A DNA stretch of 40,768 nt from a virus. The notes beneath the pieces were generated by a model. It was not told the origin of the DNA. It worked only from the letters and a program-made list of their open reading frames with translations, and ran no database searches. The position numbers and the translations under genes are program-made. The stretch lies in the IMG/VR virus record IMGVR_UViG_3300025684_000028, positions 1 through 40,768 of that record; one strand, given 5' to 3'. Below, in pieces: positions 691 through 30,300 of the stretch (its first letter is position 1; the number at the start of each line of letters is the position of its first letter).

Positions 691-2279
691 GCTCCAGCTA
701 ACATAGGATCACTATAATCCATAGCTGAAGGGGTGGTACTTATCAATGGTGTAGAGCTCGAACTAGAACTAGTATTAGTTGTTGGAGCCACCACCATGGT
801 ATTACCACCCTTTCCACTATCTAAAGCTGCTCTTTCGGCTTTTAATTCTTCTAATCTTCTACTTGCATCTTGAGATTTTGAAGCAGCTGCAAGTTGCTTA
901 TCTCTAAGATAATTATCTTTTTCAGCCCCGGTTAATTCTTTACCATCTACTATTACTTTACCACTACCCATGCGTCTTACTTGAGCAGCTGATTGTCTAG
1001 CATTTGTGTCATCAGCTCGAGCTTGCTCAATTTCAGCATCTAAAGCTTTTCTTTCTTGGACGTTAGTATCAAATTTAAAGCTTCGGATCTTATCTCCAAT
1101 GCCGCCACCAACCAATGGAATGTTTTCAATAGCTGTTGCAGCTAATTCAATAATACCATTAATAACATTTTTAAATATATCAAAAATTGAATCAATTGCT
1201 CTTGAAATAAAGTCTTGTACACTAAATCCTTTTAATGCATCTGCTGTGTCGTCAAATCCGAACTTTTTAAGTACCCAAGCCATAACGTCTTTGAGGAGAT
1301 CTAATGGAGCACCGATGACACCATTGATTAATCCCGTAATGGCACCTTGAATTGCACCAATGAAACCTTCATCTTCAAATCCACTAATAGCACCTTTAAC
1401 TGTATCCCACACGGTCATGATTAGAGTAATTGGATAGAATAATCTACCAATGATTCTACCAATTGAGCTAAGAGATTTCATAAGAGCTGAGCCTTCATCA
1501 AAGACTGAAAAGGCGGTTTTAATCATATCACCGGCTTTACCAGCGGCATCCATCACAAAATCAAATGGTGCTCTAACTTTAGCTATAATTTTGGATAATA
1601 AAGATCCACCATCTTCGCCACCCTGGAAGATAGATTTAAACGGCTTGATAGCGTCATCAATTAATCCTTCAAATGGGAATCTAAATGGAGCAGTAATCAT
1701 TCTAAAAAATTTAGCAATTCTACCGTCAGGATTTGTAAATAAATCTTTTACTGGTTTTAATAAATCATCCATAAATTTAAGAGCATCATCAAAAATAACA
1801 AATGATCTAACTTTAAGATCTTCAATAATTAAAGCAAGAGTTCCGGCTTTCGAAGAAAAGAATGCACGAATTGGTTTAAACAAATCTGTAAGAGCTTCAG
1901 CTACTCTTGTTTTGAGATTAGAAGTCATACCTCTAATATTTTTGAGAAGATCATCTAGTCTAAATAACTTAGCATATGCTTTTAAGGAATCGGAAATACC
2001 AGCCAAGATCCCACCAGCCAAAGCAGCGATGCCGGCAATGATTTTTCCATAACCAATATCTCCCTTTGGAGCTGATGCAGGAGCACCGGCCGCGGCAGTT
2101 TCATCTTTCCTTTCGCGCATCATTTCCAGCATATCCATTTGCTGGTTTTTAAGCATATCTAAGAAAGACTTAAATTTTATATTTAGCTTTTCGAGTTCAA
2201 GCGCAACTAGGACGTGACCCTCCATATTTTGCTTATTATTCTCTTTTAGCTGCTCAGCTACTTGTACTAAATTTGACAT
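687..2279 (-). CDS. Probable tail tape-measure protein (gp29-position)
   Basis: A 530-aa protein rich in Ala, Lys and Ile and predicted largely helical. An N-terminal coiled-coil-like stretch (about residues 10-60) is followed by a glycine/alanine hydrophobic segment (about 77-98, IIAGIAALAGGILAGI) and further hydrophobic helices, a pattern typical of tape-measure proteins. The tail is Ser/Thr-rich and flexible. It is the last gene of the minus-strand operon and starts at a TAATG overlap with the gp51-like frame, directly after a putative frameshifted tail-assembly chaperone. That is the classic position of a tape-measure gene. T4 gp29 is 590 aa. At about 1.5 angstrom per residue, 530 aa would correspond to a tail tube of roughly 80 nm. 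I do not recognise a direct gp29 sequence match, so the call rests on position and character. Confidence 0.6.
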   Translation of the reverse strand: MSNLVQVAEQLKENNKQNMEGHVLVALELEKLNIKFKSFLDMLKNQQMDMLEMMRERKDETAAAGAPASAPKGDIGYGKIIAGIAALAGGILAGISDSLKAYAKLFRLDDLLKNIRGMTSNLKTRVAEALTDLFKPIRAFFSSKAGTLALIIEDLKVRSFVIFDDALKFMDDLLKPVKDLFTNPDGRIAKFFRMITAPFRFPFEGLIDDAIKPFKSIFQGGEDGGSLLSKIIAKVRAPFDFVMDAAGKAGDMIKTAFSVFDEGSALMKSLSSIGRIIGRLFYPITLIMTVWDTVKGAISGFEDEGFIGAIQGAITGLINGVIGAPLDLLKDVMAWVLKKFGFDDTADALKGFSVQDFISRAIDSIFDIFKNVINGIIELAATAIENIPLVGGGIGDKIRSFKFDTNVQERKALDAEIEQARADDTNARQSAAQVRRMGSGKVIVDGKELTGAEKDNYLRDKQLAAASKSQDASRRLEELKAERAALDSGKGGNTMVVAPTTNTSSSSSSTPLISTTPSAMDYSDPMLAGA

Positions 2280-2461
2280 TACCTATTTTGCTCTTGTCTC
2301 TGTTTTTCTTCCTTTAAGTAGTTCATTAAGAGAGTAATATAGATCTCTCTTTCCCATGGTATCATTCCCTCTATCTCAGTCAGTCCCCAGTGCCAATGTG
2401 TTATCAAATTAAAATTCATTTGATAATAATTTTCAAGACTCTCATGAGATAGAGCTATGAT
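2279..2461 (-). CDS. 51: gp51-like domain, probably made by -1 frameshift from gp26
   Basis: This frame is open from just inside the end of the gp26-like gene (ATC ATA GCT CTA...) to a TAA at 2281-2279 that overlaps the next ATG. It has no ATG, GTG or TTG near its beginning. The first ATG is at 2419 and would give only 46 aa, starting inside the ENYYQMNFNLI block. Read from the frameshift site it adds 60 residues to gp26, for a fusion of about 293 aa. The sequence WGLTEIEGMIPWEREIYITL followed by a charged helix resembles cyanophage gp51 proteins and also the second domain of frameshifted tail-assembly chaperones. Whether it is made only as a fusion, only from ATG 2419, or both cannot be settled from sequence. 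Confidence 0.72.
   Translation of the reverse strand: MIALSHESLENYYQMNFNLITHWHWGLTEIEGMIPWEREIYITLLMNYLKEEKQRQEQNR
2401..2426 (-). other. Hairpin over the only ATG of the gp51-like frame
   Basis: On the minus strand TTATCAAAT (2426-2418) and ATTTGATAA (2409-2401) form a perfect 9-bp inverted repeat with an 8-nt loop. The ATG at 2419-2417 lies across the 5' arm and loop, so the structure would hide this start. It is AT-rich and therefore modest in stability. Confidence 0.5.
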
Positions 2462-3159
2462 AAAAAATTTGCTACTCCCTCAACATGAATATTATTTTCT
2501 TGACTGCATGAGCTACAGTTGAATTTAACATCATGTTCTAGTTTTGGAATACTATCAATAAAAGTTTTAATATGCTCGAATTGTTCGGTGCTCATTGATT
2601 CTAAAAAGTTTTGTAATTCTTCTTCACTTGTATCTTTTACATCAATACGTTCTTCTTCGGTATTAATAGATTTAATGCAGGCTCTTACTAAAGCAAAAGC
2701 TGCGTCAGCACTACCATCAGTTAAATCTGTTTCTAATATTTTACTAAATGCCGGATAGTCTACTGAAATTGTAATATCATCTGTTAAGGTAATTACCTTA
2801 TTCACTTCTGGCATTTCAATTTTAATCTCATCTAAATTGATATATACATCATTGCGCTCTTCACAATTTGAGCATGGTAAAATAATTTTAGATGATTCAC
2901 CAACAGATTTAGATCTTAATTGTAAAAACATATATTCAACATCAAATGTCGTAAGTTTATTTGCATCAAAGTCATCATCAACGCATGACTTAATAGTATC
3001 AACCAATGCTTTAAAAACGATTTTATTATCACCGCTCTCAGCCGCAATCATTAGGTTCTTTTCTTCCTTTACAAGGAAAGGTCTATAACGCACGCTTTTA
3101 CCGATTGATGGAATTACCATCTCATATTTTGGTGCATTATTTAGTTTTGGTAAAGCCAT
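2455..3159 (-). CDS. 26: gp26-like baseplate hub / tail-assembly chaperone protein
   Basis: A 234-aa protein of the T4 gp26 / 'T4 baseplate' family (T4 gp26 is 208 aa). The N-terminal block YRPFLVKEEKNLMIAAESGD is characteristic. Two CxxC pairs, C96/C99 and C215/C218, flank the centre and look like the two halves of a zinc ribbon. The gene follows the tube-family gene after a 15-nt gap. It ends in TTT TTA TCA TAG, where a -1 shift would fuse it to the gp51-like domain, so two products are likely: 234 aa and about 293 aa. By analogy with lambda G/GT, such pairs bind the tape-measure protein before tube polymerisation. The family call is strong and the chaperone role is inference. Confidence 0.82.
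   Translation of the reverse strand: MALPKLNNAPKYEMVIPSIGKSVRYRPFLVKEEKNLMIAAESGDNKIVFKALVDTIKSCVDDDFDANKLTTFDVEYMFLQLRSKSVGESSKIILPCSNCEERNDVYINLDEIKIEMPEVNKVITLTDDITISVDYPAFSKILETDLTDGSADAAFALVRACIKSINTEEERIDVKDTSEEELQNFLESMSTEQFEHIKTFIDSIPKLEHDVKFNCSSCSQENNIHVEGVANFLS
2461..2467 (-). promoter_or_regulatory. Putative -1 ribosomal frameshift site T TTT TTA
   Basis: In the gp26 reading frame the codons run GCA AAT TTT TTA TCA TAG. The heptamer T TTT TTA (2467-2461) has the X XXY YYZ form in the zero frame and is one of the best known -1 slippery sequences. The gp26 stop lies one codon later, and the -1 frame stays open to the next gene. The same run also gives an overlapping weaker heptamer A AAT TTT. 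Confidence 0.65.
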
Positions 3160-3174
3160 TTAGTATATACTCCA

Positions 3175-3786
3175 TTAAAAATTAAAAGAAACTGAAAGTT
3201 GACCCGCGGGTATTTTTTTCCAGTTAGTATAAGATAGTTGTACAGAAGTCTCTACAAATCCATCTTGTTCATTATTAAACTCAATTGAATTAATAGTTGT
3301 TGGGAATGCATTCGTCAATTCAACAGAATACATTGATAGTCCTAGATTTAAAAATGGTACTCGTTGTGTAGGTAACGGAATTGGCGAACCCAATTGATGG
3401 ATAATAATTCTTTTCTGATATTCACTTTTATATCCAGCAGTTTGTCCATCTTCATCTAAAATAAGTTCACGCCATTTATCAAAATAGTTTCGAATAGGAT
3501 ATACAGCAGTTTCCATAAATGTTAAAGTAACATCATCAACTGCGTATCCATATGCAATCTTTTCGAGTTCCATACCAACACGACGTTCATGCGTAAGAAT
3601 TTGTTTTCCAGGCAATGAAGCTGTGCGACATAGAATATTTTGGTTCCTTGATCCTAAGGCTCCACCAATTGCTCCTAAAATCCCGCGGCCCTGTTCAAGT
3701 TGTGGAAGTTGGACCATAAAATTATTAGGTCTAGCTAAACCACCGCCGAATGTTATTGAAGCTTTTAGTTCTGAAATTGTACTCAT
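3175..3786 (-). CDS. Tail-tube-family protein, gp54/gp19-like
   Basis: A 203-aa protein resembling the T4 gp19/gp54 tube fold. It has an N-terminal strand FMVQLPQ after a Gly-rich start, a LCRTASLPGK block typical of tube proteins (probable P-G-K loop), then DDVTLTFMET and YPIRNYFDKWRELI, and ends in amphipathic strands (ETSVQLSYTNWKKI). The major tube gp19 normally sits beside the sheath gene, and this one sits among baseplate genes, so the tube initiator gp54 is the better assignment. T4 gp54 is longer (320 aa). The start overlaps the upstream stop as ATGA. Its partners would be the gp48 cap and the hub. Confidence 0.62.
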   Translation of the reverse strand: MSTISELKASITFGGGLARPNNFMVQLPQLEQGRGILGAIGGALGSRNQNILCRTASLPGKQILTHERRVGMELEKIAYGYAVDDVTLTFMETAVYPIRNYFDKWRELILDEDGQTAGYKSEYQKRIIIHQLGSPIPLPTQRVPFLNLGLSMYSVELTNAFPTTINSIEFNNEQDGFVETSVQLSYTNWKKIPAGQLSVSFNF

Positions 3787-4353: not shown

Positions 4354-5073
4354 TTATTTATATGTATTCAGCTGTAATTTATTCCAAGTATCTTCCCAAC
4401 CTTCTACCGATATTGCCCATCCGAGATCATTGTCCATAATAGCCTTTTTTAATGTATGATCATTGCCACCTGGTTCCATTTTATCTCCAAAGAACCATAA
4501 TACATCTGAGTGCTCAAAGTCGTCAATAATTTGTGCTTTATCTTTTCCCACAGGATAGATATCCAATCCTGTTTCACCAGCAACAGTAGCATTTAACTCT
4601 GGAAATAATATATTAAATTTTTCAGAGATCCATTGCCGCTCAAGTTTATGTTCATCCCATTCAACATACATTGCTCGTTCTTCGATTGAAGCTTTACGAC
4701 CAACAATACTATAATTTAGCATTCCGGTTCTTTGTTCGAAATGATTTCCAGTTTTTTTATAAAATTTACTTGAAATAAGTTGTAGGTCTAACCAGTTATA
4801 CGCTGCTTCTGCTTTTGGCAATGCCCAGTTACTTTCTCGTATGCATACATTTTTTTTAAATACTTGATTACCACTACATTGATAAGCTGTTTCAAAACAG
4901 TCATATAAGTCTTCACCTATTTGTTCTACAGTTTTAGGTTTATCGCTTCCAGTTACCAAATAACATTTATTATTCTTGGCAAAATCCATCAACCATTCTT
5001 TAAACGCATTATTAATAATTCCTCTACTAGGAGTAAGAGTTCCATCAACATCAAATACGTAACAGTTTCTCAT
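4354..5073 (-). CDS. Phosphomannomutase, eukaryotic-type HAD superfamily
   Basis: A 239-aa protein matching the eukaryotic PMM family (usually about 246 aa), which interconverts mannose-6-phosphate and mannose-1-phosphate. HAD motif I is FDVDGTLTPSRG, with the D8 nucleophile and D10 acid. Motif II is VTGSD (40-44). The cap domain carries QRTGMLNYSIVGRK (114-127), the sugar-phosphate-binding signature. IYPVGKDKAQI supplies K177, and FFGDKMEPGGND (194-205) is motif IV. All key residues appear intact, so it should be active. It sits between gp4 and virion genes with an ATGA overlap at its start, so it is co-transcribed with structural genes. The product feeds GDP-mannose and hence glycan or lipid synthesis. 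It is an auxiliary metabolic gene absent from T4. Confidence 0.88.
   Translation of the reverse strand: MRNCYVFDVDGTLTPSRGIINNAFKEWLMDFAKNNKCYLVTGSDKPKTVEQIGEDLYDCFETAYQCSGNQVFKKNVCIRESNWALPKAEAAYNWLDLQLISSKFYKKTGNHFEQRTGMLNYSIVGRKASIEERAMYVEWDEHKLERQWISEKFNILFPELNATVAGETGLDIYPVGKDKAQIIDDFEHSDVLWFFGDKMEPGGNDHTLKKAIMDNDLGWAISVEGWEDTWNKLQLNTYK
4355..4362 (-). promoter_or_regulatory. Late promoter TATAAATA abutting a start codon
   Basis: Exact T4 late box on the minus strand, followed by 5 nt and then ATG at 4349. With the usual T4 geometry (box at -13 to -6) the start site falls on the A of the ATG. Confidence 0.65.
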
Positions 5074-26550: not shown

Positions 26551-26875
26551 AGACATGACATTCACCTGGAGTTATTGAGCATTTGTCTTTGCACGTTTTT
26601 GGGCATTGTTCTGGATTTGTTAATAGATTATTATGAAACTCTTGCCATTCAGAAGATCTTAATATATCATCAATAGAATTATTATTTTCAACTTTTAAAT
26701 TTTCATTAAATAAAGAAATTTCTCTAATTTTTTTGCCACCATCTAACCAACAACATGGAAGCATATAACCATCTCCAGTATATGCTAATTTAAATCCATA
26801 AAGTTTTCCGTATTCTTCGTTAATAACTTTTTTACCATCAATAATCCAATATGGATGGCATCTAGGATATATCAT
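26537..26875 (-). CDS. Stand-alone SPASM-like cysteine domain, copy 2
   Basis: A 112-aa protein. GDGYMLPCCWLDGG (35-48) matches GYLLPCCWCD in copy 1. NSIDDILRSSEWQEFHNNLL gives the same helix, and CPKTCKDKCSITPGEC supplies C91, C95, C99 and C106. That is a fuller CxxxCxxxC set than copy 1. Its end overlaps the radical SAM copy 2 gene and its start overlaps the carbamoyltransferase gene by 14 nt. The identical order (SPASM piece, then core) in both copies indicates cassette duplication. Confidence 0.68.
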   Translation of the reverse strand: MIYPRCHPYWIIDGKKVINEEYGKLYGFKLAYTGDGYMLPCCWLDGGKKIREISLFNENLKVENNNSIDDILRSSEWQEFHNNLLTNPEQCPKTCKDKCSITPGECHVYEYV

Positions 26876-28403
26876 TTTTAAATACCATTACATTATTAAT
26901 TACTAATAAATCTATGCCAACTCTATTAAATGTGTCTAAAGCGTTTTGAGGTGTTTCAACAATTGGCTCTTGGCAATTAAAACTTGTATTAATCACCATT
27001 GGGATTCCAGTAATCTTATAAAACTCAGAAATTAAATCATAATATTTTTCGTTTTGTTCTCGTGTTACTGTTTGAATGCGTGCAGTACCATCAACATGTG
27101 TTACACCTGGAATTTTATCAGAAATTACTGGCATGATTCTAGACATATATGGAGAAGGTTGACTAGTATTAAAATATTCTTGATAATGCTCAATCAATAC
27201 AGATGGCGCAAATGGCCGCCAATCTTCTCTTAATTTAATTTTAGTATTAATAATATCTTTAATATCTGGATTACGGGGATCAGCTAATATAGATCTGTTA
27301 CCTAATGCTCTATTACCACTTTCTGATCTTCCTTGAAACCAACCAACAATCCCACCATCAGCAATTGTTTGAGCAACTACATTTAAATCTAAGTCAATTG
27401 CTTCTTTTATATCAGGAATCCAATCACTATCAATTGACACACCAGAATATAAATTTGGGATATGTTTATTTTTATTTAAAATATAATCTGCATGAATATA
27501 TGTACCCAATGCTTGGCCTTCATCACCAGGAGCTGATGGGATCCATACATTTTCCCAGTGTTTAGTAAACCATTCATTCATATATCCGTTATAAGCTACT
27601 CCACCGGCAATACAAATATTATTACTTGTTTTTAATGGCAATACAAACTCTTCTACTTTATCATACGTATACTGTTGAATTGTTGCAGCAACGTCTGCGT
27701 TTGACACTTTATTTTCACACATTCTTTTTACGTCATTTCTAGTACCCATCCAGAACTTTCTGCCTCGAGTAATTGACTCGGCTAAGTAAATTTCTAATAA
27801 ATTATAATACCAGTCATTAACTTTACCATAACCAGCCAAACCCATCAATTTTCCTTCATCACCAACATTTAATCCAGCGGCAACACAAGATATATTCCAC
27901 AACCAACCCAGACTTAAATCATCTGTTAAATCTACCATCTTATAGTCTTTACTATTGAAGTAACAGCAAGTAAATCCTATTCCACCACCATCAATTGCTA
28001 AGATATCTGACTCTTCGTATTCCGAAGTAATAAAAGCGTTTACGGCGTGAGACTGGTGGTGATTGATATAATAGATCCCATCTTTTAAATAATAATCCCA
28101 AAGACTATCCCATTTCTTATTATATTTTCTAATTTCTTCCCAGTATGGAGTTAAAACACCGTTATGAAATGGATCTCGATTTTCTGACAATAGTCCTTTG
28201 TATCCGCCACCTGTATAAGTGAATGCAAATATATTATTGCCTCTAGATTTTAATTGTGGTTCAAATTGTGTGTCATACCATTGTGCGTAATCGCCAAGAT
28301 CCATATGTTTTTTACGGCGGCTGTGTCTTTCTTCAATGCGATGAGTTATACCATCATATGAATTCGGGTCATGCGCGTTGATATTGGTAGCAAATATTTT
28401 CAT
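26862..28403 (-). CDS. O-carbamoyltransferase, NodU/TobZ/CmcH family
   Basis: A 513-aa protein with the full signature of the family that transfers a carbamoyl group from carbamoyl phosphate, via carbamoyl-AMP, to a hydroxyl. NHHQSHA (114-120) is the metal-binding motif of the YrdC/Kae1-like half, with LAIDGGG and EGKLMGLAGYG. GGVAYNG (267-273) and PGDEGQALG (292-300) follow. GRSESGNRALGNRSI (358-372) and REDWRPFAP (392-400) lie in the C-terminal half, with HVDGTARIQTV and NTSFN near the end. All look intact. Known acceptors in the family include Nod factors, antibiotics and cephems, and I recall reports of phage members acting on hydroxymethylcytosine. The start overlaps the upstream stop as TAATG. 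Confidence 0.92.
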   Translation of the reverse strand: MKIFATNINAHDPNSYDGITHRIEERHSRRKKHMDLGDYAQWYDTQFEPQLKSRGNNIFAFTYTGGGYKGLLSENRDPFHNGVLTPYWEEIRKYNKKWDSLWDYYLKDGIYYINHHQSHAVNAFITSEYEESDILAIDGGGIGFTCCYFNSKDYKMVDLTDDLSLGWLWNISCVAAGLNVGDEGKLMGLAGYGKVNDWYYNLLEIYLAESITRGRKFWMGTRNDVKRMCENKVSNADVAATIQQYTYDKVEEFVLPLKTSNNICIAGGVAYNGYMNEWFTKHWENVWIPSAPGDEGQALGTYIHADYILNKNKHIPNLYSGVSIDSDWIPDIKEAIDLDLNVVAQTIADGGIVGWFQGRSESGNRALGNRSILADPRNPDIKDIINTKIKLREDWRPFAPSVLIEHYQEYFNTSQPSPYMSRIMPVISDKIPGVTHVDGTARIQTVTREQNEKYYDLISEFYKITGIPMVINTSFNCQEPIVETPQNALDTFNRVGIDLLVINNVMVFKNDIS

Positions 28404-29230
28404 TATAAAGTTTTACCTGATTCCATAATTTGCAAAATAAGTTCCTGGGGTTTACCAAGGAGTGAAACAGGTTCTAAACAGTTTTTGCAATAATTTTCAA
28501 ATTCAAATAATTCAAAATTAAACATCTTATCAATATTTTCTTTTGTTACATCATATGCTGTAGAACCATTAATTACTTTTTTACTACAGTGTCTGATCTT
28601 TTTCATTTCAAAATCAACAACTGGTACGCTTGGAAATGCTGCGCATATTCTTCGATCAAATTCTGGTGCTTGATCATATACACCATAAACTGGAGATCTA
28701 GAATTGTATTCTTTTAGTATTGTGTTTGAATTTTTTTCTAAATCAAGAATATCATGTTTTTTTCGATATTCATAATATGCCGGAGTTTTGATAACTACGT
28801 TATAGTTATTATTATTATTTCGTTCAAAAAAATCATAGTTACCAAGCTTTTCAATTCTATCTTCGTGAAAGTCTAGAACTAAGTGTTCAATGTAATGAAT
28901 CTCAGGATCTTCTAAAATCTCAGGATATGCTTTACGCACATATGAATTTGATAGTACCGATGGGATAAGGTTTGGATATTTTTTAATTTCAGAAATGGCT
29001 TCCATTAGATTGTTTGTCAATCCAGGCTCACCACCTAATAACATAACTCTTGCTTTATATGGTGACATCCATTCTAATAATGGTTTAACAAAGTCCATAT
29101 CAATATCTAAGTTTCTCATTTCTTTAGTCCAAGCTGTACAATAGTAACACGACTTGTTACAGCTTTTGGTAAGATAAAAGTCTACACCTAGATAACCTTG
29201 TTGTTTTGCTTCAGAAATTGATAGAGTCAT
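28403..29230 (-). CDS. Radical SAM protein with its own C-terminal cysteines
   Basis: A 275-aa protein from ATG 29230, which overlaps the aminotransferase stop as TAATG. An ATG five codons upstream is less likely. SCNKSCYYC gives C24, C28 and C31 (CxxxCxxC), and LLGGEPGL is the GGEP motif absent from the two split cores. The C-terminal third has RRICAAF, IRHCSKK and YCKNCLEP, so auxiliary cysteines are fused here. It resembles SPASM-type radical SAM enzymes. It is unlike the two split cores outside the core motif, so it probably catalyses a different step. Substrate unknown. Confidence 0.8.
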   Translation of the reverse strand: MTLSISEAKQQGYLGVDFYLTKSCNKSCYYCTAWTKEMRNLDIDMDFVKPLLEWMSPYKARVMLLGGEPGLTNNLMEAISEIKKYPNLIPSVLSNSYVRKAYPEILEDPEIHYIEHLVLDFHEDRIEKLGNYDFFERNNNNNYNVVIKTPAYYEYRKKHDILDLEKNSNTILKEYNSRSPVYGVYDQAPEFDRRICAAFPSVPVVDFEMKKIRHCSKKVINGSTAYDVTKENIDKMFNFELFEFENYCKNCLEPVSLLGKPQELILQIMESGKTL

Positions 29231-30300
29231 TATGCTGATGCCCATATAGTATTAATAATTTGATCTGTTTCTTTTTCAGTTAAGAATGCGTGAATTGGAA
29301 TACTTAAAACTGTATTACACGCTAAATCTGTATTAGGAGTTTTATCACTTTTAAATTCTTCGAATACATTTAATTTGGATAATGGTGTATCATATTTAAT
29401 GTTTGATTCAATTTGTTGACTTTTTAGAATCTGTTGAACATGCGCTCTAGTTTCAATATCTTCAAATCTTAAAGTATATTTGTGATAATTGTGATTTTCG
29501 CTATCGTCCATCCATTGTGTATTTAGACCAACATCTGAAAAAGAATCATTATATTGTTCTGCTATTTTTTGTCTAATAAGAATAAAGTTTTTTTCGTTAG
29601 AAATTCTAAATCTAATAATATTTGCAGCAAATGGATATAGTCTAGAATTCCGTCCTAGAAATTCTCCATTACCGTGTCTTCTTAATTTTGCTACATTTTG
29701 TGCAACTTCAAAATTGTCAGTTAAAACAATGCCACCACCAACTGGACTACAAACTACTTTATTAGTATTAAAACTAAAAGAACTAATATCACCTACAGTA
29801 CCAGCTTTTTTATTTTGATAACTTGATCCCCAAGCTTGAGCAGAGTCTTCAATGAGGATTAGATTTTCTTGTGTACACCATTCTTCTAATTCTGTAGTAT
29901 CTTTCATACTTCCATAAAGTGGTGTATAAATTACAGCTTTAGTTTTATCAGTTTTCATTCTTTTTATACTGTCTAGAGAAATACAATAAGTATCTAAATC
30001 AATATCGCAGAATACTGGATTTGCTCCTACCATTTTTACACAAGAGGCACTTGAAATCCAAGAAAAGTTTGAAACTAATACTTCATCGTTTTGTCCAATA
30101 CCATATGCTTCTAAAGAAAAATGAAGAGCATCTGTTGCCGAATTAACGGCAATGGCATATTTTCTACCAACTTCATGCGCAATATCTTCTTCAAAGTCTT
30201 CAACGCCATCATTTGATTGCATCATAGACTGTTCGAAAATGCGGTTATAGTCTTCTTTAAAAAATTGATAATCACGGGGCCATGGATTAAATGTAATCAT
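29230..30300 (-). CDS. DegT/DnrJ/EryC1/StrS family aminotransferase
   Basis: A 356-aa protein typical in length for PLP-dependent sugar aminotransferases. NSATDALHFSL (53-63) binds the cofactor phosphate, EVLVSNFSWISSASCVKMVG is the conserved core, EDSAQAWGSSY (151-161) holds the Asp that pairs with the pyridine ring, and SFSFNTNKVV gives the Schiff-base Lys181. GGGIVLTDN and KLRRHGNGEF follow. These enzymes aminate nucleotide-bound keto sugars. The gene overlaps its upstream neighbour by ATGA. No matching 4,6-dehydratase is visible in the window, so a host or other phage enzyme would have to supply the keto sugar. Confidence 0.88.
   Translation of the reverse strand: MITFNPWPRDYQFFKEDYNRIFEQSMMQSNDGVEDFEEDIAHEVGRKYAIAVNSATDALHFSLEAYGIGQNDEVLVSNFSWISSASCVKMVGANPVFCDIDLDTYCISLDSIKRMKTDKTKAVIYTPLYGSMKDTTELEEWCTQENLILIEDSAQAWGSSYQNKKAGTVGDISSFSFNTNKVVCSPVGGGIVLTDNFEVAQNVAKLRRHGNGEFLGRNSRLYPFAANIIRFRISNEKNFILIRQKIAEQYNDSFSDVGLNTQWMDDSENHNYHKYTLRFEDIETRAHVQQILKSQQIESNIKYDTPLSKLNVFEEFKSDKTPNTDLACNTVLSIPIHAFLTEKETDQIINTIWASA

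Follow-up and report, generated by a model that had tools for sequence, protein, structure and literature searches.

Our results indicated that the gp26-like gene of this viral record (40,768 bases, the whole of which we call the window) very probably encodes a frameshifted tail-assembly chaperone of a T4-like marine myovirus, with a short and a long form produced from one gene (probability about 0.93). The features of the locus are shown in Table 1. On the minus strand, the gene ends in GTT GAG GGA GTA GCA AAT TTT TTA TCA TAG, and an earlier, sequence-only reading had placed T TTT TTA one codon before the stop correctly to the base. The same reading had counted 60 open codons in the -1 frame, and these lie at 2461-2282 (translation IIALSHESLENYYQMNFNLITHWHWGLTEIEGMIPWEREIYITLLMNYLKEEKQRQEQNR), with a TAA stop at 2281-2279. 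The predicted fusion has 233 + 60 = 293 aa, and the peptide across its junction is ...VANFLIIALSHESLENYYQ... The ORF listing of the extension contained no ATG, GTG, or TTG upstream of 2419 in the -1 frame; since the first usual start is ATG 2419, ALSHESLENYYQ precedes every start codon, in agreement with the claim that the N-terminal part of the extension lies before any ATG.

Table 1. Positions of the features discussed; numbers refer to the window unless a locus is named
Feature	Position	Strand	Remarks
gp26-like gene, predicted short form (TAC-N, lambda gpG equivalent)	2455..3159	minus	234 aa; ATG 3159, stop TAG 2457-2455
Slippery heptamer T TTT TTA	2461..2467	minus	in frame, one sense codon 5' of the gp26 stop
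-1 frame extension (TAC-C, lambda T equivalent; gp51 in cyanophage annotation)	2279..2461	minus	60 codons + stop
Sole stand-alone ORF of the extension with a usual start codon	2279..2419	minus	ATG 2419, 46 aa; without conserved ALSHESLENYYQ
Shine-Dalgarno-like GAGGGAG, putative frameshift stimulator	2475..2481	minus	7 nt 5' of the heptamer
Probable tape-measure protein, 530 aa	687..2279	minus	phrog_58 tail length tape measure 2.4e-8, and other tape-measure PHROGs
Tail tube protein (gp19-like), upstream neighbour	3175..3786	minus	phrog_45 tail tube 1.4e-33
Vibrio phage junctions without heptamer (K364, D533, K355)	L016:2556-2590, L188:2060-2095, L189:2060-2095		

The next gene had been taken for a probable tape-measure gene, and its PHROG matches bear this out; its ATG (2279) overlaps the extension stop as TAATG. 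The window order of tube (phrog_45), gp26 with its extension, and tape measure (phrog_58) is the lambda order of tube, chaperone, and tape measure. The relatives have tube, gp26, extension, and then a tape measure or a large unnamed protein.

The search against protein families revealed that the gp26-like protein matched PF12322 T4_baseplate (6.6e-61, 206 bits; cut-off 24.5) and phrog_150, baseplate hub (3.3e-64). The -1 segment matched two models: phrog_634 (baseplate hub assembly catalyst, 2.7e-24) and, at model positions 236-281, phrog_150 (3.4e-4), whose first part is gp26. The AlphaFold model of gp26 was confident (mean pLDDT 89.7) and matched gp26 family models and a gp51 model in BFVD. 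Foldseek of this model against the PDB gave no significant match; among the matches listed, the HK97 tail-assembly chaperone 2OB9 ranked first by probability, though it is a weak match (0.23 at E 1.9), and the likeness of the predicted fold to 2OB9 is suggestive only. No significant sequence-level relatives of gp26 or of the extension were found in the PDB. As a separate matter, gp28 was considered as a third relative and rejected (E 0.34).

The sequence-only reading had proposed a comparison of gp26/gp51 junctions for a conserved slippery heptamer and an open -1 frame. Most of the loci compared came from viral contigs searched by likeness to gp26 alone and so were not selected for their junction; the non-redundant set (below 90% identity) had 152 loci. 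tblastn with gp26 matched 683 phage records, and with the -1 segment 561, the best of which begin at query residue 1-2 and so include the part before the ATG. A scan of the viral contigs with a rhizobial gp26 revealed one locus only. In 150 of the 152 loci, a TTTTTTN stood in frame close to the stop of gp26 (TTTTTTC 80, TTTTTTT 40, TTTTTTA 27, and TTTTTTG 3); it lay zero or one codon 5' of the stop in 145, and the -1 frame was open for 53-67 codons beyond the stop in every one of the 150. Elsewhere in these gp26 genes, TTTTTT stood in frame at 20 of 34,712 codon positions. With the amino acids held, the run would arise by synonymous choice alone in ~41% of cases per locus, which indicates that residues and codons are both kept.

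The first 16 codons past the slip carried 5242, 3741, and 10759 substitutions at -1 codon positions 1, 2, and 3 (1489 pairs, 70-95% alike; the pairs are non-independent, so that the counts give a direction and not a p-value). At the level of sequence, this third-position bias, ahead of any start codon, is what one sees when the -1 frame is translated. Taken with the conserved heptamer, the open frame, and the PHROG and HMM matches, it supports the earlier claim that gp26 and gp51 are here two forms arising through a -1 frameshift.

The alternative that survives best, though very improbable, is that gp51 is a separate small protein produced by reinitiation or from an internal start past the gp26 stop, and that the T run is incidental. 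Such genes are annotated in P-SSM2, C48C1, Melnitz, and P-HM2, and a possible start codon occurs early in the extension in about half of the loci. In the window, however, the first possible start drops ALSHESLENYYQ, a conserved stretch that shows coding constraint, and 71 of the 150 loci that keep the heptamer have no ATG, GTG, or TTG ahead of extension codon 12. The related Vibrio phages K364, D533, and K355 favor the separate protein locally: their junctions read CTT TTT GCG TAA TG or CTT TTC AAG TAA TG, with no heptamer, and an ATG in the -1 frame overlaps the gp26 stop (TAATG) and supplies a start. A junction with a normal gp51 start and no slippery run is what the sequence-only reading had named as speaking against it; this arrangement exists in these three phages, and elsewhere the heptamer prevails. 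We regard them as a side branch that lost the heptamer. Their TAATG start is in itself a possible third route to both chaperone parts.

Upstream of the heptamer, a Shine-Dalgarno (SD)-like 4-mer was present within 24 nt in 80.7% of the loci, against 60.3 +/- 3.7% in synonymous shuffles (z 5.5, a value that is optimistic owing to relatedness), and its 3' end was 7-9 nt from the heptamer in 110 of 150. Among the 71 loci with no start before codon 12, the figures were 81.7% against 58.7% (z 4.3, inflated by relatedness); the persistence of the enrichment in these loci argues against a pure role in initiation. A divergent subset of 98 gave z 4.1, likewise inflated by relatedness, and control windows 60-180 nt upstream gave z near 0. 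Prediction on 21 aligned junctions, with a tool whose scope is structures other than pseudoknots, yielded no consensus RNA structure downstream, a point against the frameshift.

Slippage of RNA polymerase on the T run, rather than of the ribosome, could also join the two frames, and the junctions do hold runs of 6-8 T. This is a highly improbable explanation: the six T of the window compare with about nine in the bacterial slippage runs cited in a 2016 recoding review (PMC5009743), every heptamer is in the phase that a -1 shift by the ribosome requires, and the fixed spacing of the SD-like element agrees with ribosomal slippage. An assembly error or pseudogene, in which a homopolymer indel split one gene, would agree with a frame change exactly at a homopolymer, but it is refuted by the recurrence of the junction, which about 150 non-redundant contigs share with isolate genomes of Kyanoviridae, Straboviridae, and rhizobial phages.

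For the frameshifted chaperone, we infer the slip, its efficiency, and the roles of the products as follows. Most ribosomes would stop at the gp26 stop and yield the 234-aa short form (TAC-N), and a minority would slip -1 on T TTT TTA and yield the 293-aa long form (TAC-NC) with the "gp51" segment; the upstream GAGGGAG probably helps the slip. On the model of lambda gpG/gpGT, the short form may coat the tape-measure protein, the extension may recruit tube subunits, and both forms would leave before the tail is completed. Phage T4 encodes the same pair in two genes, 26 (short) and 51 (long).

The sequences of T4-type phages agree with this pairing. Genes 26 and 51 are on opposite strands in T4T and in Erwinia phage Cronus, and the gp26 end of both lacks a slippery run; in Enterobacter phage HK6 genes 51 and 26 adjoin. 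Residues 1-201 of Cronus gp51 matched PF12322 (5.5e-56), and residue 3 to the end matched phrog_150 over nearly its full length (1.9e-79). Since both models may include gp51 members, an independent profile check was made: a profile built from frameshift-encoded extensions only matched Cronus gp51 at 200-246 (probability 90, E 1.4e-6), and a gp26-only profile matched its N-terminal part (E 7.8e-5). These two matches indicate that T4 gp51 is the long form on its own gene. T4T gp51 aligns along its length with Cronus gp51, and the same extension is visible in its sequence. T4-type gp51 is thus, as judged from these profiles, a gp26-like domain plus the same C-terminal segment, and T4 gp26 and gp51 turn out to belong to a single chaperone family, gp26 as its short form and gp51 as its long form. 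The sequence-only reading had considered that the frameshift might be general in T4-like phages. It is not: T4 and its close relatives use separate genes, and one Vibrio clade is without the heptamer.

The frameshift was reportedly described in several T4-like groups by Vladimirov et al. in 2022, together with the separate genes 26 and 51 of T4. The central idea is published since then, and the locus is a clear new example, not a new principle. The earlier proposal to join the T4 hub-assembly factors with the tail-chaperone family holds as regards gp26 and gp51 as short and long forms, but the link itself is not new. A 2025 paper cites that work (Virology 566:9-15) for the polyT -1 signals that T4-like phages carry in TAC-N genes (PMC12846349), and in the 2016 review T4 was still treated as an exception to the G-T frameshift (PMC5009743).

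The frameshift also accounts for earlier reports on gp51. Cyanophage gp51 was described as missing the ~200 residues with which T4 gp51 begins, and Aeromonas phage Aeh1 was reported to be without gp51 (Sullivan et al., 2010; PMC3037559). We link both reports to gp26, which would supply the absent part by frameshift; the Aeh1 junction reads GAT TTT TTC GAC TGA and is followed by an open -1 extension. The extension is unannotated, though open and conserved, in L183:3224-3450 (Aeh1), L186, L187, L011, and L019. It is truncated or unannotated in many records, and what is gained here is improved annotation, together with a stimulator that can be put to the test. Two small details, the SD-like stimulator and the Vibrio clade with TAATG, are possibly new. 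We propose tentatively, as an idea somewhat less probable than even, that there are three exchangeable solutions (the frameshift, the T4 duplication, and the split genes with TAATG restart of Vibrio phages K364, D533, and K355) and that marine T4-like phages rely for their frameshift on a dnaX-like SD stimulator inside conserved gp26 Glu-Gly codons.

Elsewhere in the window, a Nol-like carbamoyltransferase (26865-28403, minus strand; phrog_1601, 1.2e-106) adjoins a radical-SAM-like protein (28406-29245); the two genes form a cluster for the modification of sugars or metabolites, next to the fragment's tail and baseplate genes. A 239-aa protein (4357-5073, minus strand; phrog_29277, 1.1e-74), encoded between the genes for the DNA end protector and head closure, looks, from its start MRNCYVFDVDGTLTPSRG, like a HAD-type phosphatase.

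Three known systems can be compared with the locus. It is like lambda gpG/gpGT in the predicted -1 slip near the stop, the two forms, the tube and tape-measure flanks, and the extension open past the stop; it differs in its 234-aa short form and in slipping, as predicted, on a run of U, and the two are likened by layout, not by sequence similarity. A 5' Shine-Dalgarno stimulator is known for dnaX and many insertion elements (PMC5009743). As a point against the frameshift, U UUU UUA and U UUU UUU shift less strongly in E. coli than does A AAA AAG (PMC5009743). The SD-like element near the slip site resembles the stimulator of the E. coli dnaX -1 signal, whereas dnaX has an A-run in place of the T-run found here, where no downstream structure was predicted. 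The T4 hub-assembly factors gp26 and gp51 share the gp26 domain, and gp51 bears the same C-terminal segment; T4T and Cronus use two independent genes for what would be one frameshifted gene in the window.
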